A DNA stretch of 34,380 nucleotides from Methanobrevibacter sp. (GTDB lineage: Archaea; Methanobacteriota; Methanobacteria; Methanobacteriales; Methanobacteriaceae): assembly GCA_017459665.1 (NCBI GenBank), contig JAFUCN010000085.1, positions 1-34,380 on the forward strand. The letters are read 5' to 3'. Within the stretch, counting starts at the first letter, position 1. Every line of letters begins with the position of its first letter. Shown here in pieces: positions 5,950 through 34,380 of the stretch. The notes under the pieces were generated by a model. The model worked only from the letters and a program-made list of their open reading frames with translations. It did not search any database and was not told the DNA's origin. Position numbers and translations under genes: made by a program.

Positions 5950-7446
5950 ATGTTTTCCCCAAGTTTAGAAGAAGTAAAAGAAATTGCAAAAAATAAGGAG
6001 TATAAAAGAATACCTGTGTCATATGAATTATTTTCAGATATAGCTACTCCAATCGAAGTATTAAGAATTTTAAAAGGCATAAGTAAACATACTTACATGC
6101 TGGAAAGTGTTGAGGATTCACAAAAATGGGGAAGATACAGCTTTTTAGGTTATGATCCTCTTTTGGAGTTCACCTGCCAGGATGGAGAAGTAGTGATTAA
6201 AGGTGATGAAAGCTTTGAAAAGCTCACTGACGATGAGAGGATAATCAAAACAGATAATCCGGGCGATGTAATTAAGGAATTGGTTAAACAGAACAGATCT
6301 CCTAAACTTGAATACCTTCCTCCATTTACCGGTGGTTTTGTAGGTTATTTTGCCTATGATTACATCAAATATTCCGAACCTTCACTTAATCTTGATGCTG
6401 AAAATCAGGATGGCTTTAAAGACATTGACATAATGTTGTTTGATAAGGTTATTGCATTTGACAATTTCAAACAGAAAATAGTTCTGATTGTCAACATGAA
6501 AACTGATGATTTGGAAAGTAACTATAAAAAGACATGTGATGAGCTAAAAGAAATAGCAAACTTAATAAAAAACGGCAAAAAACCAGAAATAGAACCTCTA
6601 AAATTACAATCAGATTTCAAACCAGTATTTTCACGTGAAAAATACTGTGACATGGTTTTAAAAGCAAAAGATTACATTTATGAAGGAGATATTTTCCAGG
6701 TAGTGCTTTCAAATAAAATCGAGGCTGAAATCACAGGAAGCCTATTTGATACTTATAGGGTTTTAAGAACAACAAACCCTTCACCATATATGTTTTATTT
6801 CTCAAGTGATGATATAGAAATCGCAGGAGCATCTCCTGAAACATTGGTCAAGTTAACTGATAAGAAATTATACACATTCCCTCTTGCAGGTACAAGACCA
6901 CGTGGAAAAACAGAAGAAGAGGATTTGGAACTTGAAAATGATTTGCTTTCAGATGAAAAGGAACTGGCGGAACACAATATGCTGGTTGATTTGGGAAGAA
7001 ACGATATTGGAAGAATATCAGAAATCGGGTCTGTAAGCGTAGACAAGTACCTGTCAATTGAAAGATTTTCTCACGTGATGCATATAGGCTCAACAGTCAG
7101 CGGAACATTGAGAAGCGATTTGGAATCCCTTGCAGCAATTGATTCAATTTTACCTGCAGGAACATTGTCAGGAGCTCCAAAAATAAGAGCATGTGAAATT
7201 ATCAATGAAATTGAGGACAATAAACGTGGAATTTATGGTGGCGCCATTGGATATGTCGATTTCAGCGGAAACATCGATACATGTATTTCAATTAGAATAG
7301 CATTTGCAAGAAACAATAAGGTATTCATCCGTTCCGGAGCCGGAATCGTTGCAGATAGTGTCCCGGACAATGAGTTCGATGAATGTCTAAATAAGGCTGC
7401 TGCTGTAGTTAATGCATTAAAACTTGCTGATGGAGGGATAGAATGA
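5950..7446 (+). CDS. trpE: Anthranilate synthase component I
   Basis: Makes anthranilate from chorismate with ammonia supplied by TrpG; first committed step of tryptophan synthesis. The 498-residue protein has the N-terminal regulatory region with MLES at 50-53, matching the LLES tryptophan-binding motif of feedback-inhibited enzymes, so feedback inhibition is expected. The chorismate-binding domain contains ASPETLVKL, FPLAGTRPRG, EHNMLVDLGRNDIGR, HVMHIGSTVSG, LPAGTLSGAPK and the closing GAGIVADSVPDNEFDE. It is first gene of trpEGDCFBA. Its stop overlaps the trpG start in an ATGA arrangement, consistent with coupled translation of the two subunits. Confidence 0.97.
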   Translation: MFSPSLEEVKEIAKNKEYKRIPVSYELFSDIATPIEVLRILKGISKHTYMLESVEDSQKWGRYSFLGYDPLLEFTCQDGEVVIKGDESFEKLTDDERIIKTDNPGDVIKELVKQNRSPKLEYLPPFTGGFVGYFAYDYIKYSEPSLNLDAENQDGFKDIDIMLFDKVIAFDNFKQKIVLIVNMKTDDLESNYKKTCDELKEIANLIKNGKKPEIEPLKLQSDFKPVFSREKYCDMVLKAKDYIYEGDIFQVVLSNKIEAEITGSLFDTYRVLRTTNPSPYMFYFSSDDIEIAGASPETLVKLTDKKLYTFPLAGTRPRGKTEEEDLELENDLLSDEKELAEHNMLVDLGRNDIGRISEIGSVSVDKYLSIERFSHVMHIGSTVSGTLRSDLESLAAIDSILPAGTLSGAPKIRACEIINEIEDNKRGIYGGAIGYVDFSGNIDTCISIRIAFARNNKVFIRSGAGIVADSVPDNEFDECLNKAAAVVNALKLADGGIE

Positions 7447-8027
7447 TTCTTTTAATAGACAATTATGATAGTTTTTCTTATAACCTATATCAACTTATCG
7501 GACAGGTAAATCCTGACATTAAGGTTTTAAGAAACGATAAGATTACAATAGAAGAAATTAGAGATTTAAATCCGCAAGCAATTATTCTCTCTCCAGGTCC
7601 TGGAAGGCCGGAAGATGCGGGAATATGTATAGAGCTTGTTAGAGAGTTCCATGATAAGATTCCTATTTTGGGAGTCTGTCTGGGCCACCAGTCTATATGT
7701 GCTGCATTCGGCGGTGAGATATCCCATGCAAAACGATTAATGCATGGAAAATCCTCAGACATTTCACTTGATTATGACTTTATTTTCAAAGGTCTGCCAA
7801 GCGAGATAAATGTAGGAAGATATCACTCCCTAAGTCTGGTTAAAGAAAGCCTTCCGGACTGTTTGGAAATCATTTCAAAGGCAAAGGATGATGGGGAAGT
7901 CATGGCTGTAAAGCATAATGAGTTTAATGTTTACGGACTCCAGTTTCATCCGGAATCCATATTGACACCTGACGGTTTAACAATTATAGAAAATTTCATA
8001 GAAAAGGTTAACAGAGGTATTTTATGA
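7443..8027 (+). CDS. trpG: Anthranilate synthase component II, glutamine amidotransferase
   Basis: Hydrolyses glutamine and passes ammonia to TrpE. The 194-residue class I amidotransferase has the oxyanion segment LSPGPGRPEDAG, the nucleophile Cys79 in GVCLGHQ, and the His169/Glu171 pair in QFHPES completing the triad. It is a stand-alone subunit, not fused to TrpD. The ATG overlaps the trpE stop and GGAGGG sits just upstream inside trpE. Its own stop overlaps the trpD start in the same way. A role in p-aminobenzoate synthesis is unlikely given the full trp context. Confidence 0.97.
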   Translation: MILLIDNYDSFSYNLYQLIGQVNPDIKVLRNDKITIEEIRDLNPQAIILSPGPGRPEDAGICIELVREFHDKIPILGVCLGHQSICAAFGGEISHAKRLMHGKSSDISLDYDFIFKGLPSEINVGRYHSLSLVKESLPDCLEIISKAKDDGEVMAVKHNEFNVYGLQFHPESILTPDGLTIIENFIEKVNRGIL

Positions 8028-9031
8028 TTAAAGAAGCAATTTTAAAAGTTTACAAACATGAAGATTTAACTTATGATGAAGCATATCAGACTATGGATGA
8101 GATCATGAGCGGCGAGGCAAGTGAGGTTCAGATGAGTGCTTATTTAACTGCAATGTCTATGAAAGGTGAAACTATTGATGAGATTACTGCATCTGCAGAA
8201 GCTATGAGGGCTCACTGCGTAAGATTGCTCAATGATGAAAAAGTTCTGGAGATTGTTGGAACTGGTGGTGACGGTTCGAATACATTCAACATATCAACAA
8301 CCTCTTCAATCGTAATTTCAGCAGCAGGAGTTCCTGTTGCAAAGCATGGAAACAGATCAGCATCAAGCAAATGCGGTGCTGCAGATGTTTTGGAACAGTT
8401 AGGAGTAAACATTTACATTGAACCTGAAAAAAGTCTAAAATGCCTTAAAGAGATTAACTTATGTTTCCTGTTTGCTCAAAATTATCATTTATCCATGAAA
8501 TATGTTGCTAATGTAAGAAAAGAGCTTTCAATAAGAACAATCTTTAATATTCTTGGGCCGCTAACCAATCCCGCCGGTGCTTCCATGCAGGTATTGGGAG
8601 TATATGAAAAGGACTTGGTGGAGCCGTTAATTGATGTATTGAGCAATTTGGGTGTTGAATCTGCATTGTCCGTTTATGGATTGGACGGTATGGATGAAAT
8701 TTCTGCCAGTGACAAAACATTTGTCTGTGAGCTAAAGGACGGTAAAAAGATGTCTTATGAGATTTCACCGGAATATTTCGGAATGGAACTTGCATCCAAA
8801 GAAGATTTGGTTGGAGGGGATGCAAGAGAAAACGCTAAAATTACATTAGCCATTTTGACAGGTGAGAAAGGACCAAAAAGAAATGCGGTACTTTTAAACT
8901 CTGCTGCAGGTTTGTATGTTGCAGGAAAAGTGGAATCACTGAAAGAGGGTGTTGAAATGGCATCAGAAATTATTGATTCCGGAAAAGCATTAGCGCAGCT
9001 TGAAAAATTCATTGAATTTACCAACAGATGA
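8024..9031 (+). CDS. trpD: Anthranilate phosphoribosyltransferase
   Basis: Transfers the phosphoribosyl group of PRPP to anthranilate. The 335-residue protein has a helical N-terminal domain, the PRPP-binding loop GTGGDGSNTFNIST, and the KHGNRSASSKCGAADVLEQL segment that binds anthranilate and the Mg-PRPP complex. RTIFNILGPLTNPA is a further family signature. The length is normal. GAGGT lies just before the ATG inside trpG, and the trpG stop overlaps the start. The end is four bases before the preferred trpC start. Confidence 0.97.
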   Translation: MIKEAILKVYKHEDLTYDEAYQTMDEIMSGEASEVQMSAYLTAMSMKGETIDEITASAEAMRAHCVRLLNDEKVLEIVGTGGDGSNTFNISTTSSIVISAAGVPVAKHGNRSASSKCGAADVLEQLGVNIYIEPEKSLKCLKEINLCFLFAQNYHLSMKYVANVRKELSIRTIFNILGPLTNPAGASMQVLGVYEKDLVEPLIDVLSNLGVESALSVYGLDGMDEISASDKTFVCELKDGKKMSYEISPEYFGMELASKEDLVGGDARENAKITLAILTGEKGPKRNAVLLNSAAGLYVAGKVESLKEGVEMASEIIDSGKALAQLEKFIEFTNR

Positions 9032-9035
9032 TATT

Positions 9036-9812
9036 ATGTTAGATGAAATTGTTGAAAAGACAAAAGAAAGAGTTGAAATTTCAAAAAGTATAATGCCTTT
9101 GGATGAACTTAAAAAGGCAGTATCCCTAATGGAAGTATCTGATGAGTTCCCGTTTAAAAAGGCATTAAGTGAAGATGATATTTCAATTATTGCTGAGGTT
9201 AAAAAAGCTTCTCCTTCAAAAGGTTTGATTGCTGAGGATTTTGATTATCTTGCAATTGCAAAGGAATATGAGGCTGCAGGTGCAAGTGCGATTTCAGTTT
9301 TAACAGAACCTTACTTTTTTAAAGGGTCTGATGATTATCTAAAAGAAATTGCCAGTGAGGTTAACATTCCAGTTTTAAGAAAGGATTTTGTAGTCGATGA
9401 ATATATGATTTGGGAAGCTAAGCTTCTTGGAGCTTCAGCAGTTTTGTTAATTGTTTCTATTTTGGATATTGTTCAGTTAAAGAAATATTTGGATTTGGCA
9501 CATGATTTAGGCCTTTCAGCTATTGTTGAAGCTCATGATGGTGATGAAATCATGAAGGCGATGACTGTAGGTGCTGAAATTATAGGTGTAAATAACAGAA
9601 ATCTAAAGGATTTTACTGTAAACATCGAAAACAGTATCGACCTACGTAGATGTGTTAGTGGAGATGTGGTATTTATTTCTGAAAGTGGCATTAAAACACC
9701 TCAAGATGTTGCCAGATTAAAGGAAAATAATGTTGATGCAGTTTTAATTGGTGAAACTTTAATGAAAAGTGATGATAAAAAGTCCATGATTTCGGAGTTG
9801 AAGAATGGTTAA
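9036..9812 (+). CDS. trpC: Indole-3-glycerol phosphate synthase
   Basis: Closes the indole ring: CdRP to indole-3-glycerol phosphate plus CO2 and water. It is a TIM barrel of 258 residues when read from ATG 9036. A TTG at 9000 would extend it 12 residues into trpD, but 9036 follows the trpD stop by four bases, has GATGA at spacing four, and gives the usual family length. Motifs include AEVKKASPSKG (catalytic Lys and phosphate contacts), VLRKDFVVDEYMIWEAKLLGA, IGVNNRNLKDF, ISESGIKTP and VLIGETLM. The end overlaps the trpF start. Confidence 0.95.
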   Translation: MLDEIVEKTKERVEISKSIMPLDELKKAVSLMEVSDEFPFKKALSEDDISIIAEVKKASPSKGLIAEDFDYLAIAKEYEAAGASAISVLTEPYFFKGSDDYLKEIASEVNIPVLRKDFVVDEYMIWEAKLLGASAVLLIVSILDIVQLKKYLDLAHDLGLSAIVEAHDGDEIMKAMTVGAEIIGVNNRNLKDFTVNIENSIDLRRCVSGDVVFISESGIKTPQDVARLKENNVDAVLIGETLMKSDDKKSMISELKNG

Positions 9813-10404
9813 AATCAAAATCTGCGGACTCAAGAGATTGGAGGATATAGAAATTGCAAATAAGTATAAACCCGACTATATAGGTTTTGTATTTGCAGAT
9901 TCTAAAAGAAAGGTATCCCATGATTTAGCTGGTGAGTTGAAAAAGAATTTAAATTCTGATATAGTTTCAGTTGGTGTTTTTGTAGATGCTCCACAAGATG
10001 AGATATTGGAATTATTCAATCAGAAAATAATAGAAATCGCTCAGCTTCACGGGGCTGAAAGTGAAGAGTATATAAGAAATCTTAAAGAAAAAACTAATCA
10101 TGAATTAAAAATCATTAAAGCTATTGAAATTACACAAAATACTGATTTATTGAGTTATGATGATTCAAAAGCTGATTATCTATTACTTGACAGTGGAAAA
10201 GGCAGTGGAAAAACATTTGACTGGCGACTGATAAGAAAAGATTTGAAAAAGGAATTTTTCTTGGCTGGAGGTTTAAACAGTTCAAATGTCATTGAAGCAA
10301 TAAATGAATTCCATCCATATGCTATTGATTTAAGTTCAAGCCTTGAAACTGATGGATTTAAAGATGAAAATAAAATTAAGGAGATAATGGAGGTTATCAA
10401 TTGA
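9805..10404 (+). CDS. trpF: Phosphoribosylanthranilate isomerase
   Basis: Isomerises phosphoribosylanthranilate to CdRP by an Amadori rearrangement. It is a small TIM barrel of 199 residues. The N-terminal [14 protein letters not shown] carries the catalytic cysteine, [13 protein letters not shown] contacts phosphate, [15 protein letters not shown] carries the general-acid aspartate, and [11 protein letters not shown] plus [11 protein letters not shown] complete the phosphate site. It overlaps trpC by eight bases and trpB by four. A GGAGTT ribosome-binding site lies inside the trpC end. Because trpF follows trpC here, the product of trpD passes to TrpF before TrpC in the pathway. Confidence 0.96.
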
Positions 10405-11585
10405 GTAAAGGAAGATATGGTGAATATGGAGGCCAATACATATCTGAAACATTGATGAATGAATTAATCTATTTGGAAGAGCAGTATAATCATTATATGA
10501 ATGATCCGGAATTTGTAGATGAACTTAATACACTTTTAAAAGAATATGCCGGACGCCCTTCCCTGTTGTATTATGCTAAAAGAATGACTGAAGACCTGGG
10601 TGGAGCTAAAATCTATTTGAAACGTGAAGACTTAAACCACACTGGGGCACATAAGATTAACAATGTTTTAGGTCAAGTATTGCTTGCCAAAAAAATGGGA
10701 AAAACAAGAGTCATCGCAGAAACCGGTGCTGGCCAGCATGGTGTTGCAACAGCGACTGCCGCTGCGCTTTTGGACATGGAATGTGAAGTGTTCATGGGGG
10801 AAGTGGACACTAAAAGGCAGGCATTAAATGTTTATAGGATGGAATTGCTTGGTGCAAAGGTACATTCCGTCAAATCCGGAACAAAAACCCTAAAAGACGC
10901 AGTAAACGATGCATTTAGAGATTGGATTGCAAGAGTTCATGATACAAATTATGTAATCGGTTCCACAATGGGGCCCCATCCATTTCCAATGATTGTACGT
11001 GACTTCCAGGCTGTAATAAGTGCTGAAGCTCGCCAACAGTTTTTGGATAAGGAAGGCAAACTCCCGAATGCAGTAATTGCATGTGTTGGAGGTGGAAGTA
11101 ATGCTATGGGAGCTTTCTATAACTTCATTGATGATGAAGAGGTTAAACTGATTGGTTGTGAAGCAGGCGGAAAAGGTGTAGACACCCCATATAATGCAGC
11201 TGCTTTAACTAACGGTAAAATAGGAATATTTCACGGCATGAAATCAATTTTCAGTCAGGGGGACTATGGTCAAATCGCTCCGGTATACTCAGTTTCAGCA
11301 GGTCTTGACTATCCTGGTGTAGGGCCAGAACACGCTTATTTAAGAGATATTGGAAGAGCGCAATACGTTCCGATAACTGATGAAGAGGCAGTGGATGCAT
11401 TTGAATATCTGTCAAAAATGGAAGGCATTATTCCTGCCATTGAAAGTGCTCATGCAGTTGCCCATGCAATGAAAATAGCGCCGGAAATGGATAAGGATGA
11501 AATTATAATGATATGTCTTTCAGGAAGGGGAGACAAGGATGTCAGATCAATTGCAGAATATAGGGGAGTTGATTTAAATGAGTAA
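10401..11585 (+). CDS. trpB: Tryptophan synthase beta chain
   Basis: PLP enzyme joining indole and serine to make tryptophan. The 394-residue protein is of the standard TrpB1 type that pairs with TrpA. The Schiff-base lysine is Lys85 in HTGAHKINN. Others are [23 protein letters not shown], the PLP-phosphate loop [10 protein letters not shown] and CLSGRGDKD near the end. The start is a TTG at 10401, not ATG: GGAGGT six bases upstream, normal N-terminus [15 protein letters not shown], and overlap with the trpF stop (TTGA) all agree. Confidence 0.97.
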
Positions 11586-12351
11586 AATCGCAAATGCATT
11601 TGAAAATGGAACAGCTTTTATTGGATTTTTAACTGCTGGAGATCCAACCATTGATAAAACAGTTGAATACATTTTGGCTATGGAAGAAGCGGGCTGTGAT
11701 TTGATAGAAATTGGTATTCCATTCTCAGACCCAATGGCTGAAGGTGTTGTAATTCAGGATGCAAATGTAAGGGCACTTAAACACAACACAACAACTGATG
11801 ATGTGTTTGATATTGTCTCAAGGGTTCGCCAGAAGACAGACATTCCATTGGTATTTTTAACTTATATCAATCCTGTTTTCTTTTATGGTTATGAAAAATT
11901 CTTTAAGAGATGTGCTGAGTTGGGAATTGACGGAATCATTTCTCCGGATTTGCCTTTCGAAGAAAAAGGAGAAATCGTGGATATTGCCCGTAAAAATGAT
12001 GTGGATGTAATATCCTTGATTGCTCCGACTTCAAGTGAAAGGATTAAAATGATAGCAAGTGATGCATCAGGATTTATTTATGTCGTTTCATCACTTGGAG
12101 TTACAGGTATGAGGGCAGAAATTAAAACTGACCTGAATGCAATATTGTCCGATATTAGGGAAGTCACAGATTTGCCGCTGGCAGTCGGTTTTGGTATAAA
12201 CACTCCTGAACAGGCATCAGACATTTCTAAAATTGCAGATGGTGTTATTGTTGGAAGCGCTATCGTTAAAATAATAGAAGAGCATGGTGAAGATGCAACT
12301 GAAGCTTTAAAAGAATATGTCTCATCCATGAAAAATGCATGTCTTGAATAA
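11578..12351 (+). CDS. trpA: Tryptophan synthase alpha chain
   Basis: Cleaves indole-3-glycerol phosphate to indole and glyceraldehyde 3-phosphate; indole is channelled to TrpB. The 257-residue TIM barrel has the catalytic glutamate in [15 protein letters not shown], the catalytic aspartate in [14 protein letters not shown], then [10 protein letters not shown] and [10 protein letters not shown] for phosphate binding. It overlaps trpB by eight bases and ends the operon. Its stop lies in a small inverted repeat; the pcn promoter follows immediately. Confidence 0.97.
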
Positions 12352-24843: not shown

Positions 24844-24918
24844 AGCAGGGTGGGGTAGTCTGGTGAACCCGCGGGGCTCATAACCCCGAGATCCCTAGTT
24901 CAAATCTAGGCCCTGCTA
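24844..24918 (+). tRNA. Initiator tRNA-Met (anticodon CAT)
   Basis: A 75-base cloverleaf. Acceptor AGCAGGG pairs with CCCTGCT, discriminator A, CCA not encoded. D-stem GGGT/ACCC, anticodon stem CGGGG/CCCCG with loop CTCATAA, T-stem CCTAG/CTAGG. The A1-U72 first pair and the run of G-C pairs in the anticodon stem are the archaeal initiator features, so this is called initiator rather than elongator. Confidence 0.95.
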
Positions 24919-24934
24919 TCTTAATTAATATTTT

Positions 24935-25223
24935 TATGGCAAGTTAAAGACAGCTACTGGTTATTTTAACTAAGGAAACTCCGCCCATCAATACAGAACT
25001 ATGGCGTTGAAAAACGTATACTGAGAAGTATGACTCTGGAGCAGAAACGACACGGCTTTTAATGGTAGACGATGATATTTAATTGAGGACATTAAAAGAA
25101 TCGGTGAAACGGCCATTCCATAGGATGCAAGAACAAAGCTGCCGATAATCGCTGTTGTAGGCAAGGTAGTTCGCTAAGATGAATGCTGTTAAACAGAAGG
25201 TGGGTTACTCTTAACAGGCCATA
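24935..25223 (+). ncRNA. rnpB: RNase P RNA, archaeal type A
   Basis: Catalytic RNA of RNase P, which removes tRNA 5' leaders. It is about 289 nt. The conserved elements are CR-I GGAAACTCCGCCC (24974-24986), CR-IV AGATGAATGCTG (25178-25189) and CR-V ACAGAAGGTGGGTTA (25193-25207). CCGCC in CR-I pairs with GGTGG in CR-V to form P4. P1 is TATGGC (24935-24940) with GCCATA (25218-25223), and GTTAA/TTAAC forms part of P2. The P1 helix can be extended outward by TTAATTAATATT (24921-24932) pairing with AATATTAATTAA (25224-25235). It begins 16 bases after the initiator tRNA without an intervening promoter and ends 14 bases from the convergent dus gene. Ends are inferred from pairing. Confidence 0.92.
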
Positions 25224-26261: not shown

Positions 26262-26298
26262 AAAAAAAGTAGTAATGTGGATTAGTTAAATAATCCAC
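26262..26298 (-). terminator. Hairpin over the DUF1002 gene stop, then T-run
   Basis: GTGGATTA (26277-26284) pairs perfectly with TAATCCAC (26291-26298) across six bases. The minus-strand TAA at 26284-26282 is in the hairpin. On the minus strand ATTACTACTTTTTTT follows. The GC content of the stem makes it one of the more solid terminators here. Confidence 0.7.
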
Positions 26299-27130
26299 TT
26301 AAAAATCCTTTTGCTGAATCGCTGTCAGTGCTTCCCAAAACATCAGATACTTGGCTTTGATAGTTGTCTATATCGCCTTGAACGTTTTGGATTTGTTCAA
26401 TACTGTCTGCTAAATTTTCAATATCGGTATTTGTAAGGTTGATATTGTAGGTAATTGTGTAATTGTTGATTATATTTACAATTGTAGCATGATCAGTAAT
26501 GTCTTCTTCTTGAACGGTCTGTTTCACATCGTCAACTAAATTGGATAACTCATCTGCGTCAACGTCAGAATTTTCCACAATTTCTGCTTGAGTGTAGATT
26601 TCATTGTTGGCTGCTTCTTTTACTGTATCTGGAATTTCAACATCGGTTGCCACTTCGTATGAATTCATGATTCCTGTAAGTGCTGATTCACCGGTTGCAG
26701 TTACAGGGCTTGTTACATAAACGTGTCCGCTTGTAATTCCAACAGATTTTAGGGCAGATAGGTACATATCTCCGGTTATTGTGGTGATTTTTGATTTGTC
26801 CACACTGACTTCAAGATTGTCGTTGTCATTTAAATCCACAAGTGCTGAGGAAAATATCTGGTTTGAATTGTAAGTTTTTCCTGTTATGGTGCTTGCAATC
26901 TTATTTACTTCGCTGGCTGTGATTATTTTTGAATCAATAGTGTATAAATCAACGCCTGCCTGTTTTACAAAAAAGTCATCTACGATATTTTTATAATCTG
27001 TGTTTTTGTGTGTAGTTTCACCATAAGTTATTACAACTTGGGAGCCGTCATTAGCTGAAAAACCTACAGGTATGAGCATTCCTATAATTAATATTGATAG
27101 GAGAATCATGCTTAAACTAATCTTGCGCAT
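26282..27130 (-). CDS. Secreted DUF1002 family protein
   Basis: Function unknown. The 282-residue protein has a signal peptide (about 1-26; MRKISLSMILLSILIIGMLI, then PVGFSA). The rest matches DUF1002 as known from Bacillus and other Firmicutes and from methanogens: VVITYGETTH, SKIITASEV, ITTITGDMYLSALKSVGIT, VTSPVTATGESALTGIMNSYE. The second half is helical and Asp/Glu-rich (about 175-270). The GTG at 27139 would add MII, but AGGTGA followed by five bases leads to the ATG at 27130, giving a proper signal peptide. It is divergent from the CobN-like gene with 198 bases between. The shared control region and common secretion suggest linked roles. Confidence 0.8.
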   Translation of the reverse strand: MRKISLSMILLSILIIGMLIPVGFSANDGSQVVITYGETTHKNTDYKNIVDDFFVKQAGVDLYTIDSKIITASEVNKIASTITGKTYNSNQIFSSALVDLNDNDNLEVSVDKSKITTITGDMYLSALKSVGITSGHVYVTSPVTATGESALTGIMNSYEVATDVEIPDTVKEAANNEIYTQAEIVENSDVDADELSNLVDDVKQTVQEEDITDHATIVNIINNYTITYNINLTNTDIENLADSIEQIQNVQGDIDNYQSQVSDVLGSTDSDSAKGFLSGLFN

Positions 27131-27169
27131 TATTATCACCTCTAATATATTGGTACATTTTATTTAGTC

Positions 27170-27190
27170 GATACAATATTTAAATGTATC
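27170..27190. promoter_or_regulatory. Inverted repeat framing the DUF1002 TATA box
   Basis: GATACA (27170-27175) and TGTATC (27185-27190) are perfect arms around ATATTTAAA, the minus-strand TATA box of the DUF1002 gene, about 50 bases before its start. The layout copies that of the XRE promoter at 4292-4314. The plus-strand CobN-like gene may use TTTAAACTTATAG (about 27267-27279). Operator role inferred. Confidence 0.4.
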
Positions 27191-27328
27191 TTTTTTGTGT
27201 TTATTTGATTTTAATGAATTATAGTTCTAATTAAGTTTAGTTAATTTTATATGTTTTCAAATTAAATTTAAACTTATAGTGAATTATTGCTATGTTTGTT
27301 ATAAATAATTGTAAAAGGGGGTGAAAAT

Positions 27329-30300
27329 ACGAAAAAGTTAGATTATAGGTTGTTATTTACATTAATTCTTTCGATAATGCTCATATTTTCAATAAGCATG
27401 GTTTTTGCAGATGAAAATAATGCAGTATCTGATGTGGTTGGTGTTCCTAATGAGATAAGTGATGTTGGTCAAGATTCGCAATTGATTGAAATTGAGAGTT
27501 CCCAGGTTGATGAATCTATTTTGGCAGAAAGTAATAATGTTATTAATATTCATGTAACTGACTCTTATAACGAAACTGGCAACACATGGGATGAAGATGG
27601 ATTTGACTTAGCGGGAGCTACCGTTAAGGTTTATGACTCTTCAAATAAACTAATTTCAACACACACAACAAATTCAAAAGGTAATGCAGTAATCAAGAAC
27701 TTGGCTTCAAGCAAATATTACTTGGAAGTCAGCTATTCAACATATGAACCAATGAAACTTGATGTTGTCGATTTTACCAAAAAAAGCGGTACAGTAAATA
27801 TTGATAATGTAATGTTCGTTCCGGATATCCTGATGCTTGTGGACTACAACTCCCACAACGAAAAAGTGGATGTCTTGATGAACATGTCCAGAAGAGTTGC
27901 GTTTATCAGTACCACTGATTTTGACAAAGGAAGGGCATGGTTAGTTGAATATGCAAACTACATTCATATTGATATGTTTTCAGAATCGGCGTATAGTGTT
28001 TTTACAGGTCAATACTTAAAGGAATTATTGGCAAAATCACCGGCTAATGCAAGATATAACGTTGCATATACATTCGGTGTCTGCTCACAGCAAATCCTAA
28101 ACAACACTGGTTTGCATGTTGTTGGAGCTTCAGCTAATAACAACACTTTTGATACAATTGAAAACACATATGTTGGCTCATATTTCCAGGCAAGAGATAT
28201 TGAGGAATCACATATCCTACAAAGTAATATGAAGAATTATTTGGCTTATGTTTATTATTTAATCAATCCGTCAAAATACACAGATCCTACACTTGATGAG
28301 GCTAACTCTCCTTTAATGTCTCCTGAGTGCGGATTTTACCATCCGGACATGGGAATCTATTCATTGGTTCCTGAAGGAAAGCTTGTAAATCAGTGGATTC
28401 GTGAAAATCCGGGTTATACTCATAGTGGTGATGGAAGTCTAAACTGGATGGTCGAAGACTATGTGGAATGGTTGACAAATGTCTTGGATCCGACAAGTCT
28501 GTTTATTAAGTTTGAAAACGATTATATTGCTAAATTCAATCCAAACAAAACATTTATAGCTATCGCTTCTTACTATGGTGGTGAAGAAGTAGTTGATGCT
28601 CTAATCAGAGGCTATGAAGCTAGCGGAAGGCCGGCATTCAATGTATTTAAGACAGGCACACAACCCCCTATCTCTTCAATCTTAAACAAGATTAACAATA
28701 TTTCAAAAGTGGGAATGTCTGCTGTTAATTCATTGTGCAGTTGGTCACTAGATTATACTGCTGGTACTGCAGAACCGGACTTATCAGATATTGATTTGCA
28801 TGTATTGAAAGGTATAGTTGATATATCAGAATACAGTTTTAACAGTGAATTGGGTCCTCAAGTGGAATGGACATTTATGGTTACCTATCCAAGTTTTGAA
28901 GGAGTATTCGGACAGGTTGCACTGTCTTATGTGGATGGCTATGGAAAATCTCATGTCATTCAAGATGGTATAGATAAAATGGTCAAATTAAACTGTGCTT
29001 GGGCTGATTTAAAAGATTTAAACAATTCTGATAAAAAAATATCTGTAATGCTGTACAATTACCCACCAGGTAAAGCAGAAATTGGTGCATCTTATCTTGA
29101 TGTTTTCAATAGTGTCTATGATTTGCTTATTCAGTTGTATGCTCAAGGATATGATATTGGAGGTGCTGTTGAATACTCAAATGTTTACAACAACACTTAT
29201 CAGTGGATTATCAACTCAAATACTGATTATCGTGTCAATGGAAATTACACTAATTTGATTTCACTTGAAAATTTGACTGATATAATCTTTGATATGAACA
29301 ACAAAGGTTCATGGGCATCAGGTTTGCTTGAAAAATATGTTGAAGAAAACTGGGATTATTTAATGGAACACCATCAGTTAATTTCTCTTGAAGATTTTGA
29401 ATATTTGACATCTGATTTAAGGGATGAACTATATAAAGAACTTATAGATTATTGGGGTGACAATTTAGGTCCTGCAATGGTTTATAAAGAAAAATACATC
29501 GTAATTCCAGGTATATGGTTCGGTAATGTATTTGTTACTTTCCAGCCAAGTAGAGGTTGGGAGGAAGTACAGGATTATCACAGCCTGACTATACCTCCAC
29601 ATCAGCAATACGTTGCATTTTATGAATGGATGGATAAAATCGCAAATGTCAATGCTATGGTTAGTATGGGAACTCACGGTACTCAGGAATGGTTGCCAGG
29701 TATCAATCTTGGTGCATTCCCGGGGGATTGGACATTTGAATTGACTTTAATTCCAACAGTCTATCCGTATATTGTTTCCAACCCTGGTGAAGCTATGGTT
29801 GCAAGAGATAGAAGTTCAGCACTTCTTATTACTCACATGACTCCTGCAATGGTTTCATCTGAGTTATATGGTAATTATACTACCTTGAAAAATTACATTA
29901 ACTACTATAAAGACCAAGTTGCTCTTAATGTAACTGCCAATGCTGAATCCTATAGAAATATGATTTTGGAATTGGCTCCTGCTTTAGGTTTTAGAAACAT
30001 TACCGAAAACGAAAGTTTCAGTGACTGGATAGATGAACTGCACCTTTATCTTGATGCAATGGAAGATGACTTCAATACTTATGGATTGCATACATTAGGT
30101 AAGGTCTTAACTGGTTATGAGCTTGCAGAAGAGATAATTACAATTGTAACTTCTCAAACTAAGATTTATAATCAATTAATAGAGTTTTTATATCCTGATT
30201 TGGCTAATTTAAGCTTTTATAAGGATATGCAAGGCAATCTCAAGTATTCAAATGAAGTCAGTGCCATTAAAGCTTACCTTAAGGAGTATGTTTATCGTAT

Positions 30301-32185
30301 GGTTAATGGTAGTTCAGCTGAAGAGCTAAACAATGAATTGGGAATTTTAAAGGGAACCGCTTTATATAATTCAACAAGTTATTGTGAAGATATAATCGTC
30401 AATATTCAGAATAATAATGAATGGAATGCGATTTTACTTGCTTTAAGTGGAAATTATGTAAAAGCAGGATTGTTTGCAGACCCATCATATGGGGATTCTA
30501 TTCCTACAGGATATGACGGTTATGCATCTGACCCAACAAGAATGCCGTCTTTAGCAGCATATGATTCTGCTGTAAGAATTGTTGACATGCTTTTGGCTAA
30601 TTACTATGATCAGCATGGTAAATGGCCGGAATTAACTTCATTGATTTTATGGGGTACTGAAATATCAAGAACTGAAGGAATTGGTGTCGCTGAGTTTATG
30701 TATCTGCTTGGTTGTAAACCGGTATGGGCGGACAATGGAAAAGTTCTGGGCGTTGAACAAATACCTATTGAAGATTTAAAAGTTGAATTAAACAATGGTA
30801 CAATTGTTAACAGGCCTAGAGTTGACGTATTCGCCAGTATGGTTACAAACAATAAGGATTGGATTACTTGGATGTTAACAGCAGTTAAACTGGCTGCTGA
30901 AGTCGATGGTGAAGATGCATCTAACAATTTTGTTAAAAAGCATTATGCTGAAAATCCAACTTTGGACAGATTATTCGGTCTTCCGGGCAATGTATTGGAA
31001 GGAACCGGTATGTCTAATCTTATTCCGAATACTGCTGACTGGAACATATCAACTTTCCACGATTATGCAATGGATATTTATTTAAATAAGGTATCTTATT
31101 CATGGACTCTTGACGAAAAAGGAAATATTGTCATTAATAAAGAAAAAGAGATATATAAATATCTGATTGAAAATGTTGATGTAATTACCCAGAACTTTGA
31201 CAGTAGCTGGAGATTATTTGACTCAGACGATTATTTCGACTGGTTTGGTGGTTTGTTAAATGCAGCTAACAGATTGAAAGAACAAGCCGGTAAAGAACCT
31301 GTAGATACAATGTTCTTTGATATTAGGAATAAAAACGATATCAAATCCAGAACATATATGGAAGAAATCAATTTCGAAATTCGCAGTATGCTTTTAAATC
31401 CACAGTATACTGAAGCATTAATTCATACTCCTGCCGGAATGAATTCCTATGCTGAAAGTATGCAGAATTTCTATGGGTCACTGCTATTAGGTGGGCGTCC
31501 GTTAAATACTCAATTGGGTAATCAGCTAGCTGAACAGATGTTGTACATATCATCTACTGTTAATAAAGCTAGTTTGGCTCCTGGTTCTCAATCATGTACT
31601 GCTTGGATGATTTATATGGCTCAACAAGGGCTTTGGGATGCAGATTCAAGCACTGTTCAAAGATTAATTGATGATTATATGAGAAGTGTAGTACAATATG
31701 GTGTTGCATGTTGTCACCACACATGTAAAAATCTTGCATTTAGTGATGAGATAATTCAGGCAAGTTCATTAACTGCTGCTGAAAAACAAAGATTTGCAGA
31801 AATTTTAGCTCAAGCAACAAATACTGAGCAATTATATACTGCAGATGAAACTGGAGGAAGCAGTGGTAATGCGAACACACTAGCTAACGGAACTTCTCAA
31901 GAGAAATCAAGCGGTTCTAGAGATGGTGGTCAAACAGCAGTTGGTGAAGATCCATCTCCAAGTGGAACAGCACAATCAGCTTCAGATGCTCAGGATTCAT
32001 CATCAAGTGATGCCGGTGCAAGTGGAGCTCAAGCTTATGAACTTTCACAGAAATCTGCATCTAAATCTGCAGTTTCTGCCGAGTCCAGTATGCCAATATT
32101 TGTTATTATTGCAGTAATTATCTTAATTGCAATATTCCTGGTTGGATACTTAAGAAACGATGAAGACGATTTTGATGATTATTAA
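27329..32185 (+). CDS. Secreted, membrane-anchored CobN/magnesium-chelatase H-like protein
   Basis: Homologue of CobN/ChlH, the large chelatase subunit that holds the tetrapyrrole while a metal is inserted, but built for export. From the ACG at 27329 it has 1618 residues: n-region KKLDYR and hydrophobic core ending SMVFA (about 1-27); a small Ig/carboxypeptidase-regulatory-like domain (about 72-165, GFDLAGATVKVYDSSNKLIS); the CobN domain (about 166-1500) with MGTHGTQEWLPG (His783), YPYIVSNPGEAMVARDRSSA, RLFGLPGN and FDSDDYFDWFGGL; CCHHTC (1461-1466); a Ser/Gly/Ala linker (about 1510-1580); a final membrane span (IFVIIAVIILIAIFLVGYL) and an acidic tail. Starts without ACG would be TTG 27350 or ATG 27377. 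No ATPase subunits are nearby. Substrate and metal unknown. Confidence 0.85.
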   Translation, partial: TKKLDYRLLFTLILSIMLIFSISMVFADENNAVSDVVGVPNEISDVGQDSQLIEIESSQVDESILAESNNVINIHVTDSYNETGNTWDEDGFDLAGATVKVYDSSNKLISTHTTNSKGNAVIKNLASSKYYLEVSYSTYEPMKLDVVDFTKKSGTVNIDNVMFVPDILMLVDYNSHNEKVDVLMNMSRRVAFISTTDFDKGRAWLVEYANYIHIDMFSESAYSVFTGQYLKELLAKSPANARYNVAYTFGVCSQQILNNTGLHVVGASANNNTFDTIENTYVGSYFQARDIEESHILQSNMKNYLAYVYYLINPSKYTDPTLDEANSPLMSPECGFYHPDMGIYSLVPEGKLVNQWIRENPGYTHSGDGSLNWMVEDYVEWLTNVLDPTSLFIKFENDYIAKFNPNKTFIAIASYYGGEEVVDALIRGYEASGRPAFNVFKTGTQPPISSILNKINNISKVGMSAVNSLCSWSLDYTAGTAEPDLSDIDLHVLKGIVDISEYSFNSELGPQVEWTFMVTYPSFEGVFGQVALSYVDGYGKSHVIQDGIDKMVKLNCAWADLKDLNNSDKKISVMLYNYPPGKAEIGASYLDVFNSVYDLLIQLYAQGYDIGGAVEYSNVYNNTYQWIINSNTDYRVNGNYTNLISLENLTDIIFDMNNKGSWASGLLEKYVEENWDYLMEHHQLISLEDFEYLTSDLRDELYKELIDYWGDNLGPAMVYKEKYIVIPGIWFGNVFVTFQPSRGWEEVQDYHSLTIPPHQQYVAFYEWMDKIANVNAMVSMGTHGTQEWLPGINLGAFPGDWTFELTLIPTVYPYIVSNPGEAMVARDRSSALLITHMTPAMVSSELYGNYTTLKNYINYYKDQVALNVTANAESYRNMILELAPALGFRNITENESFSDWIDELHLYLDAMEDDFNTYGLHTLGKVLTGYELAEEIITIVTSQTKIYNQLIEFLYPDLANLSFYKDMQGNLKYSNEVSAIKAYLKEYVYRMVNGSSAEELNNELGILKGTALYNSTSYCEDIIVNIQNNNEWNAILLALSGNYVKAGLFADPSYGDSIPTGYDGYASDPTRMPSLAAYDSAVRIVDMLLANYYDQHGKWPELTSLILWGTEISRTEGIGVAEFMYLLGCKPVWADNGKVLGVEQIPIEDLKVELNNGTIVNRPRVDVFASMVTNNKDWITWMLTAVKLAAEVDGEDASNNFVKKHYAENPTLDRLFGLPGNVLEGTGMSNLIPNTADWNISTFHDYAMDIYLNKVSYSWTLDEKGNIVINKEKEIYKYLIENVDVITQNFDSSWRLFDSDDYFDWFGGLLNAANRLKEQAGKEPVDTMFFDIRNKNDIKSRTYMEEINFEIRSMLLNPQYTEALIHTPAGMNSYAESMQNFYGSLLLGGRPLNTQLGNQLAEQMLYISSTVNKASLAPGSQSCTAWMIYMAQQGLWDADSSTVQRLIDDYMRSVVQYGVACCHHTCKNLAFSDEIIQASSLTAAEKQRFAEILAQATNTEQLYTADETGGSSGNANTLANGTSQEKSSGSRDGGQTAVGEDPSPSGTAQSASDAQDSSSSDAGASGAQAYELSQKSASKSAVSAESSMPIFVIIAVIILIAIFLVGYLRNDEDDFDDY

Positions 32186-32354: not shown

Positions 32355-34380
32355 ATGTTTAAAAAAGCTAGTTTATTAGTTTTATTACTGTTAATCTTTT
32401 TTTCGGTTGGTGTAGTTAGCGCTAGCGATAATATCGATGGTAATTATACTAATGATATTTTAGATACGTCTGACATTGCCGTTGATGACGCACTGTCAGC
32501 CAGTTCTCACGTTATAACAAAAGACAATTATAATCAATATTTTGATAATGAAGGAAATGCAATAAATACTGTTGTAAAATCAGGAGATACAGTTAATTTC
32601 CAGGGTGACTTTTCCAATCTAAGATTTGCGTTTAATACTCCCGTAACTATTGTTGGAGACAGCACTCATAAAATGACAAATGTTGCTATAACATTAAACA
32701 GCGGAGCATCCGGAAGTTCTGTATCCAATTTGAATATTGCAAATACAAAATCTGCAACTTGGGGTTTGTTTTTAAATTCAGCAAGCAAATGTACCATTAA
32801 AAACTGTATTATAACAAATACTGGTTCTGCTTCCTACTGTATTTCTCTTGCAAATGGAGCCAATTATAATAACATTACTGACAATACTTTAACAGGTTAT
32901 GGCGAATGTTATGGGCATGGTACAAGGTCTATTCCGGCATTGCTTGTAAGTGGTTCTAATTATAATTACCTGGCCAATAATCATGTTGAAGTTGATGATG
33001 CAAACGGTATTTATCTATCCAGCTATTCAGGTTCCTCATATGGAATCGCAATAAATGGTGGGGAATCATTCTTTAACACAATCTACAACAATACTGTTAA
33101 ATATAATGTCCTTCCAACATCATGGGCTTATGGTATCCAGATAATGGGTGGAAACAACACCATCAAATCCAATACAATTATCGGAGGTTATAGAGGTGTT
33201 TCTACTGCAGGTAGTGGCAATATAATTAGGGATAATAAAATTATCAACCTCACAGGTGCTGATTACAATAATTTAGGTGTTGAAGTCGGTGGGGAATTCG
33301 GAATTGTCGGTTCATATGATTCCATTGTAATTAACAACACCATCACTGGAGCTAAAATAATTGCAACTGGTGCAGGAATATCCATTATTGACAATGGAAT
33401 TGCCCAAGATAATTTCGTTGACGTTACCTTAAAAGGAAGAGGAATTGTTGCAGCAGGTTCCAATGTTGAAGTTAAAAACAATAAGGTATTTACACAGTCA
33501 GGTTCAGGCATTTATGAAAAGGATGAAGGATCAGGCTTATTGATTGACGGAAACGAAATCACATCAGATACTGGAATCTGTATTTTAATTGAAAAATTAA
33601 GTTCAAAAAGAATGCCTTCTGATGTAACAATCACAAACAACGTCCTTTATACAAACAACGAATATGCAATTGACGTAAGCGGTGTTAAGGCTGATACTGC
33701 AAAAATAGAATCAAATAATGTAGGTTCCGGAAAAATATTGTCTCCGTCAGGTGTTGTTGACCCTTCAAAACCGGCTTATAACTATAAAGGAACAACACAC
33801 ATCATCACTTCCTCAAATATACGCCAATATATCAACGACAATGGTGGTTTAACATCTAAAATCAATGATGGAGATATTTTAAACTTCCAGGGAACATTTT
33901 CAAATGAAATAATCTACGTTACAAAAGCTGTAAAAATAACAGGAAACAATCCTATATTCTACAATTCCTCATTTAAGGTCACATGTGGCAATGTATTGAT
34001 TGAAAATTTAAACATCATCAATGCAAATGCTGAAAGGGTAAATGCGTGGGGTATTTTTGTCTATCAGGCTCCTGGTGTCAGAATACAAAACAATAACATT
34101 AGCGTCAATGATCCGAATGCGGCTTATGCAGTTTACGTCCTGGAATCAACCGATGTTGATGTAATCAATAACTATTTTGTTTCTGAGGGAAATTATCTTA
34201 CATTTACACTGCTTTCATATGCCAGCGAAGAATGTAACTTTACAAACAATACAATCAACACTATCGGTACAGGTGAAGTCTATAATTTTGAGCCTGAAAA
34301 ATGCATTGACGGAAATGAGTTATGCTTGGACGGCAGCGAGTTCTGTCTTGACGGTGGACACATTGTTTCTGAAATATATA
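32355..34380 (+). CDS. Adhesin-like secreted beta-helix protein (3' end beyond window)
   Basis: One continuous frame from ATG 32355 to the window edge, 675 codons with no stop, so the C-terminus is missing. GAGGT lies five bases before the ATG. A signal peptide (about 1-24, MFKKASLLVLLLLIFFSVGV) precedes Asn-rich right-handed beta-helix (PbH1/NosD-like) repeats, e.g. NNTIKSNTIIGGYRGVSTAG. The layout shows an internal duplication: VITKDNYNQYF...GDTVNFQGDFSN (from residue 53) returns as ITSSNIRQYIN...GDILNFQGTFSN (from residue 483), each opening a new helix. The visible end has three CxDG steps (KCIDGNELCLDGSEFCLDGG). Such proteins are numerous in gut Methanobrevibacter and are thought to act at the cell surface; the ligand is unknown. 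Confidence 0.88.
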   Translation, partial: MFKKASLLVLLLLIFFSVGVVSASDNIDGNYTNDILDTSDIAVDDALSASSHVITKDNYNQYFDNEGNAINTVVKSGDTVNFQGDFSNLRFAFNTPVTIVGDSTHKMTNVAITLNSGASGSSVSNLNIANTKSATWGLFLNSASKCTIKNCIITNTGSASYCISLANGANYNNITDNTLTGYGECYGHGTRSIPALLVSGSNYNYLANNHVEVDDANGIYLSSYSGSSYGIAINGGESFFNTIYNNTVKYNVLPTSWAYGIQIMGGNNTIKSNTIIGGYRGVSTAGSGNIIRDNKIINLTGADYNNLGVEVGGEFGIVGSYDSIVINNTITGAKIIATGAGISIIDNGIAQDNFVDVTLKGRGIVAAGSNVEVKNNKVFTQSGSGIYEKDEGSGLLIDGNEITSDTGICILIEKLSSKRMPSDVTITNNVLYTNNEYAIDVSGVKADTAKIESNNVGSGKILSPSGVVDPSKPAYNYKGTTHIITSSNIRQYINDNGGLTSKINDGDILNFQGTFSNEIIYVTKAVKITGNNPIFYNSSFKVTCGNVLIENLNIINANAERVNAWGIFVYQAPGVRIQNNNISVNDPNAAYAVYVLESTDVDVINNYFVSEGNYLTFTLLSYASEECNFTNNTINTIGTGEVYNFEPEKCIDGNELCLDGSEFCLDGGHIVSEIY

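Follow-up and report, generated by a model that had tools for sequence, protein, structure and literature searches.

What does a CobN-type chelatase do once it has been sent outside the cell? The question is raised by a 34,380-nt stretch of Methanobrevibacter sp. DNA (assembly GCA_017459665.1, contig JAFUCN010000085.1, positions 1–34,380, forward strand; hereafter the window), in which a full-length CobN-type gene lies divergent from a gene for a secreted DUF1002 protein. The initial annotation, made from the sequence alone, placed this pair correctly, as the open reading frames (ORFs) and the matches to PF02514 and PF06207 indicate. It proposed that a metallo-tetrapyrrole may be captured or stripped at the cell surface, which is plausible on sequence grounds, and regarded the role as one without a described match. 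Such matches exist in HmuS and BtuS (PMC12583661, PMC6460266), and because of HmuS an exported chelatase is less mysterious than was held. The kind of protein is thus already described; its role in methanogens is not. We propose that the window protein is a surface-anchored chelatase of the HmuS/BtuS branch that acts on a metallo-tetrapyrrole, most likely in reverse as a de-chelatase. We give this reading a probability of roughly 0.55.

Architecture and relatives of the exported chelatase

The gene and its protein contain the following features.

27329–32185, + strand: extracytoplasmic class I chelatase (CobN/HmuS-like), 1618 aa (PF02514, HmuS tree, predicted fold)
27329–27409, + strand: signal peptide, residues 1–27 (basic n-region, hydrophobic peak of 2.65, conserved in relatives)
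27590–27784, + strand: Ig-like / CarboxypepD_reg-like domain (PF13620, PF17802)
28223–31477, + strand: CobN-Mg_chel domain (Pfam profile match)
29579 and 29789, + strand: His751 (HmuS His506 equivalent) and Glu821 (HmuS Glu577 equivalent)
29675–29677, + strand: His783, equivalent to the catalytic His538 of HmuS
31199–31261, + strand: motif DSSWRLFDSDDYFDWFGG, in which HmuS Trp1202 and Ser1199 are kept and His1209 is replaced by Asp1301
31709–31726, + strand: CCHHTC motif in the C-terminal extension, a putative metal site (alignment of relatives)
31835–32053, + strand: Ser/Gly-rich linker (37% Ser+Gly)
32096–32152, + strand: C-terminal membrane anchor (hydrophobic peak of 3.32)

By its PF02514 (CobN-Mg_chel) score of 563 bits (cut-off 24.5; positions 10–1029 of the 1090 in the model) and its catalytic His, the window protein is a member of the class I chelatase superfamily. 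It has only two hydrophobic peaks, at residues 8–26 and 1590–1608, the second preceded by the Ser/Gly-rich linker. An exported, C-terminally anchored chelatase is therefore sound by sequence, and the signal peptide, linker and anchor of the initial annotation are borne out by hydrophobicity and composition. The annotated Ig-like domain is at the edge of detection: PF13620 scores 31.4 bits, below its cut-off of 32.3, and the related SpaA model PF17802 passes with 23.5 against 23.1. The chelatase body (window positions 28196–31795) was predicted with a mean local confidence (pLDDT) of 88.5 and a predicted template modelling (TM) score (pTM) of 0.87. It matches CobN (7C6O), HmuS (9P4S/9D26) and ChlH over nearly the full length at TM scores of 0.68–0.75, those to solved CobN and HmuS being about 0.73–0.75. 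The predicted fold is intact, with the pocket geometry judged through aligned residues only.

The genome that contains the window carries two exported chelatase genes, the window copy and a copy on contig 7 (C7), with about 25% identity between them. In a tree of 36 proteins (878 columns, C-terminal extension excluded), the window type, the C7 type and other exported archaeal proteins group with HmuS (Shimodaira–Hasegawa-like approximate likelihood ratio test, SH-aLRT, 97). Outside that group fall CobN, ChlH, a CobN-like protein of haloarchaea and a methanogen protein that has no signal peptide. The window protein also scores far under the cut-offs of all CobN and BchH equivalog models (372 bits against 829 for ChlH/BchH). 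A search of the assembly, which is 81% complete, returned no ChlD-type partner (best match 25.9 bits, cut-off 499.55), in line with the annotated absence of an ATPase partner. No cob genes are found near the window chelatase; CobS and CobT themselves were not searched for.

HmuS, reported in 2025, removes iron from heme anaerobically, with NADH and without ATP, and a cryo-EM structure is available; its archaeal homologues were described as numerous and of unclear function (PMC12583661). The window protein shares with this protein of Bacteroidota (PDB 9D26, 9P4S) the chelatase fold, the extracytoplasmic anchoring, the lack of an ATPase partner and the tree branch. It also has equivalents of His538, Glu577, His506 and Trp1202 and a C-terminal extension with a Cys motif, and homologues of HmuU and HmuV adjoin archaeal members. 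Unlike HmuS, it has an extra Ig-like domain, lacks hmuY and hmuR, and is encoded by a stand-alone gene in the window's genus. BtuS1 and BtuS2 of Bacteroides are CobN-like proteins anchored in the membrane outside the cytoplasm (PMC6460266), and the levels of two BtuS proteins of M. barkeri shift with the iron source (PMC10846266). Like BtuS1/2 of B. fragilis and the M. barkeri proteins, the window protein is exported, anchored, CobN-like, without cob genes and one of two copies per genome. The heme-iron role in Bacteroides, however, was shown only genetically, and the archaeal paralogues differ here in motif and neighbours. CobN of the aerobic cobaltochelatase (PDB 7C6O) has the same fold, core His and DSDDY motif, but is cytoplasmic, works with CobS/CobT, adjoins cob genes and has no C-terminal extension. 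ChlH/BchH of magnesium chelatase (PDB 4ZHJ) shares the fold and the core His, but is cytoplasmic, works with ChlI/ChlD in the chlorophyll pathway and occupies a separate tree branch. Archaeal genes of this kind appear in earlier accounts. A homologue in M. ruminantium was noted in 2010 to be a surface protein with helices at both termini, and was listed alongside adhesin-like genes whose locus numbers are close by (PMC2812497). In the older literature, these genes are entered as CobN or put forward as nickel chelatases for F430 (PMC3087415).

The catalytic center is well conserved. His783, in a G-x-H-G/A motif, is present in all 23 window-type relatives, and His751 and Glu821 are likewise invariant among the 23; in HmuS, replacement of His538 by Ala abolishes turnover (PMC12583661). 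The C-terminal extension is common to the window type and HmuS and absent from CobN/ChlH. Its Cys motif varies with the type, reading CSGFVC in HmuS, CCDCSC in the C7 type and CCHHTC in the window type, where it is near-invariant (one of the 23 proteins is without the last Cys). We infer that this motif is a metal-binding or metal-receiving site. Within one archaeal family, the homologues thus separate into two old paralogues, each characterised by its residues, motifs and neighbouring genes.

Proposed mechanism and competing readings

At the C7 locus (L006:3641-13317), the chelatase gene is followed by genes for DUF2162, ExbB-family, DUF2149 and DUF3344 proteins, forming an archaeal operon that resembles hmuS-x-U-V without hmuY/hmuR. 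The ExbB-family protein is about 32–36% identical to Bacteroides HmuU (E values down to 1e-37), and DUF2149 matches Bacteroides HmuV at E values of about 1e-5 to 1e-10. The order after the chelatase gene is the same for both pairs, and invariant motifs are common to the archaeal and Bacteroides families, among them a lone Asp in the membrane helix of DUF2149. In two genomes of another genus (L214, L215), the trio DUF2162/ExbB/DUF2149 directly follows a window-type chelatase, and in a third (L222) it is nearby. The full hmuYRSTUV operon is not present; homologues of U and V only were found, beside the C7 paralogue or, in another genus, beside the window type. CobN and DUF2149 are co-mentioned in existing papers. 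DUF2162 was rejected as HmuT, the T-position protein showing no homology by hhalign. The APCPCC motif of DUF2162, a predicted transporter, is invariant and may be a metal site (L006, L068, L075, L076, L081, L083, L037, L069).

The proposed function draws on the tree group with HmuS, the invariant His783, His751 and Glu821, the shared extension, the intact predicted fold and the HmuU/HmuV linkage. By analogy, the ATP-free HmuS with its essential His538 (PMC12583661) and the iron-responsive BtuS of M. barkeri (PMC10846266) also argue for it. A metallo-tetrapyrrole would be captured outside the membrane, and the chelatase would close around the ring. The metal would be removed, or less likely inserted, at the His783 site without an ATPase, and may then pass to the CCHHxC site near the membrane. 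Should energy or conformational work be required, the ion-driven ExbB/DUF2149 pair would provide it in place of CobST or ChlID; in this genome, the pair is encoded beside the C7 paralogue, at the second locus. For the substrate, our first guess is iron from heme-like rings, since it is chemically the easiest and is documented for HmuS. Such an activity would suggest a route for gut methanogens to metal from heme-type rings.

The pair is kept beside the chelatase in archaea of this family, which have no outer membrane, and this suggests that its client is the chelatase itself or a transfer across the cytoplasmic membrane. In Bacteroides, HmuUV has been assigned to powering the outer-membrane receptor HmuR; the role of HmuUV thus becomes directly testable. 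That the pair acts directly on the chelatase is a tentative suggestion. Equally tentative is a wider reading, in which class I chelatases outside the cytoplasm would form an energetic type of their own, with an ion-driven HmuUV-type pair in place of the ATP-driven CobST/ChlID, and the lone copy of the window's genus would be held at low output by a maintained non-AUG start. It is drawn from the retention of the pair beside the chelatase in archaea that lack both an outer membrane and a TonB receptor. The archaeal branch has features for which we found no report, and its function and energy source are made testable.

Several observations weigh against the de-chelatase reading. To our knowledge, no archaeal member has a known activity. 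The Met-rich insert of domain IV is missing, with 10 residues and no Met in its place compared to 79–145 residues with 11–30 Met in HmuS. The heme site formed in HmuS by Met79, His254-Gly-Arg and Gln299 is not kept in the window type; the ligands Met79 and His254 are replaced by Phe and Ser, in a region of weak alignment. The LSLDHxxEFMGG motif of HmuS, which contains His1209, reads LFDSDDYFDWFGG in the window type, with Asp at the His1209 position, as is also the case in two of three aligned CobN proteins. Because the head/neck region aligns weakly, the loss of its residues is less certain than for residues of the body. In the window's genus, the window copy is not adjacent to the ExbB/DUF2149 pair, and in one genome (L083:1410-17974) two exported chelatases, DUF2162, ExbB, DUF2149 and DUF3344 adjoin CbiM, a component of the cobalt/nickel energy-coupling factor (ECF) transporter, an arrangement that favours Co/Ni over Fe. 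A search of the 81%-complete genome gave no FeoB_C, and this speaks against iron uptake, provided that the gene is not in the part still missing. B. fragilis without both BtuS proteins still released porphyrin (PMC6460266). With the HmuS-defining features missing, the window protein does not qualify as HmuS; its sequence suggests that it plausibly works like HmuS without being HmuS itself. The missing heme ligands and the CbiM neighbour also keep corrinoid and F430 as possible substrates.

The same evidence bears on other functions. The protein might be a non-catalytic surface receptor or store: corrinoid, F430 or heme would be bound and passed on whole to a transporter, with the metal left in place. 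The Asp at the position of the second axial His of HmuS, the adhesin-like beta-helix protein among the neighbours and the separate heme-holding site of HmuS itself are consistent with this. Yet the invariant His783, Glu821 and His751 would be needless for a pure binder, and the residues that were lost are exactly those of the holding site in HmuS, making a receptor or store rather unlikely. Alternatively, the chelatase fold might serve a structural or adhesive purpose at the surface, with no tetrapyrrole ligand. This would suit the location between surface proteins, the Ig-like domain and the conserved beta-helix neighbour, but the core catalytic residues are invariant across genera and the chelatase is linked to the ExbB/DUF2149 pair in other genera; we regard this reading as improbable.

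A standard CobN or ChlH role was rejected because of the extracytoplasmic location, the missing partner, the equivalog cut-offs and the tree position. The corresponding alternative is that the protein has been misread as exported and serves cofactor synthesis as a cobaltochelatase or Ni/Mg chelatase. It could draw on the CobN-like DSDDY motif, whose Asp replaces HmuS His1209, and on the older CobN and F430 nickel-chelatase listings (PMC3087415). The signal peptide and anchor, the absence of a ChlD match over the cut-off in the 81%-complete assembly, the low CobN/BchH scores and the placement in the tree make it more improbable still than an adhesive role. We retain the de-chelatase reading as the preferred one.

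The start codon of the chelatase gene

Two features define the start of the chelatase gene.

27317–27324, + strand: Shine-Dalgarno (SD) sequence GGGGGTGA, conserved in the genus
27329–27331, + strand: likely non-AUG start codon ACG (SD spacing, 54-gene census, control ORFs)

An in-frame ACG lies four bases past the SD sequence and is followed by the basic n-region and the signal helix. At this position, the 54 genes from 53 genomes of the genus have ACG (35), ATC (9), ATT (4), ATA (2), CTG (1), ACA (1), ATG (1) and TTG (1), so that 52 of the 54 carry a codon other than ATG, GTG or TTG; ATC is also present in a genome from a different genus. Of 29 other long ORFs at these loci that follow an SD sequence of this type, 27 have ATG or TTG in place, and the two exceptions resemble chance SD matches. 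The DUF1002 partner has an ATG start after the same kind of SD sequence, and in several other genera exported chelatases have an ATG before the signal peptide. Mapped on a tree, the start-codon labels require at least nine changes, nearly all between non-standard codons.

The position of the start at ACG is strongly supported by these sequence comparisons, and the chelatase is probably translated from a non-AUG codon. Some genes allow other readings: an in-frame GTG overlaps the SD sequence in about seven, an in-frame ATG follows two codons on in three, and one of the four ATT cases (L054) can be read as ACG at a spacing of 2 nt. The GTG and ATG cases do not account for the remaining non-AUG genes. 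Translation could also begin at the TTG at 27350, a legal start that was picked by the ORF finder. This TTG is 25 nt away from the SD sequence, inside the hydrophobic segment, and is not conserved, whereas the codons of the basic n-region upstream of it are, and the ACG/ATC/ATT position is found 4–5 nt past a near-perfect SD sequence; a start at TTG is thus hardly probable. A non-AUG start would keep the output of the chelatase low. Switching among ACG, AUC, AUU and AUA, with AUG or UUG in only 2 of the 54 genes, is unusual and provides a clean test of archaeal start-codon selection. A literature search for ACG starts in archaea found only unrelated work. The initial annotation did not record this non-AUG start, nor the CCHHxC motif or the further paralogue that lies in an operon at another place in the genome.

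The DUF1002 gene and other neighbours

The genes and control region around the chelatase are as follows.

26282–27127, − strand: secreted DUF1002 protein, 281 aa from the ATG at 27127 (PF06207)
27128–27328, no strand: control region common to the two divergent genes, containing conserved blocks (alignment of 17 genomes)
32355–34380, + strand: beta-helix surface protein, running off the window (PF13229, 66.5 bits), the conserved downstream neighbour

The DUF1002 protein covers the whole PF06207 model (1–220 of 220) with 175.5 bits (cut-off 26). Its AlphaFold2 model (pLDDT 84) has no PDB match at E<0.001 that would indicate a function by fold. The gap of the divergent pair, annotated as 198 bases, becomes 201 when counted from the DUF1002 ATG to the likely chelatase ACG. 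Among 56 genomes of the window's genus parsed as holding both genes, DUF1002 adjoins the chelatase in 45, always divergently; in a few of the 45, at least one gene lies between them, with gaps of up to about 7 kb between the domain matches. The neighbourhood is thus conserved within the genus, but in none of the parsed genomes of other genera of the family does DUF1002 lie next to the chelatase. Two genomes of the window's genus, closed or 99% complete, keep the chelatase and have no DUF1002 gene. Co-occurrence at the level of genomes is positive (92 with both, 13 and 14 with a single one, 20 with neither; p 2e-7), though confounded by kinship and assembly completeness.

DUF1002 was therefore rejected as an obligate partner, and the annotated view of the two genes as a functional unit is not supported, other neighbours being kept more widely. 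DUF1002 may instead be an accessory secreted protein that shares the control region of the chelatase. We found no paper linking CobN and DUF1002. Many genomes of the genus contain two DUF1002 genes; the second one here, on contig 7 (L007:4534-5397), adjoins a gene for a secreted repeat protein and not a chelatase.

Downstream of the chelatase, mostly at a distance of 100–180 bp, the co-directional beta-helix gene recurs in almost every locus of the genus and also in other genera; it is more widely kept than DUF1002. In one locus (L062:2882-16868), the chelatase and beta-helix pair is tandemly duplicated, with apparent starts at CTG in the first chelatase copy and ACG in the second.

An Rfam scan of the window for riboswitches gave RNase P RNA and three tRNAs only. 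The archaeal RNase P RNA (24939–25219, 209 bits) directly follows a tRNA at 24844–24918. By eye, the ORFs at 5950–12351 look like an operon with the complete set of tryptophan biosynthesis genes (trpE, G, D, C, F, B, A).

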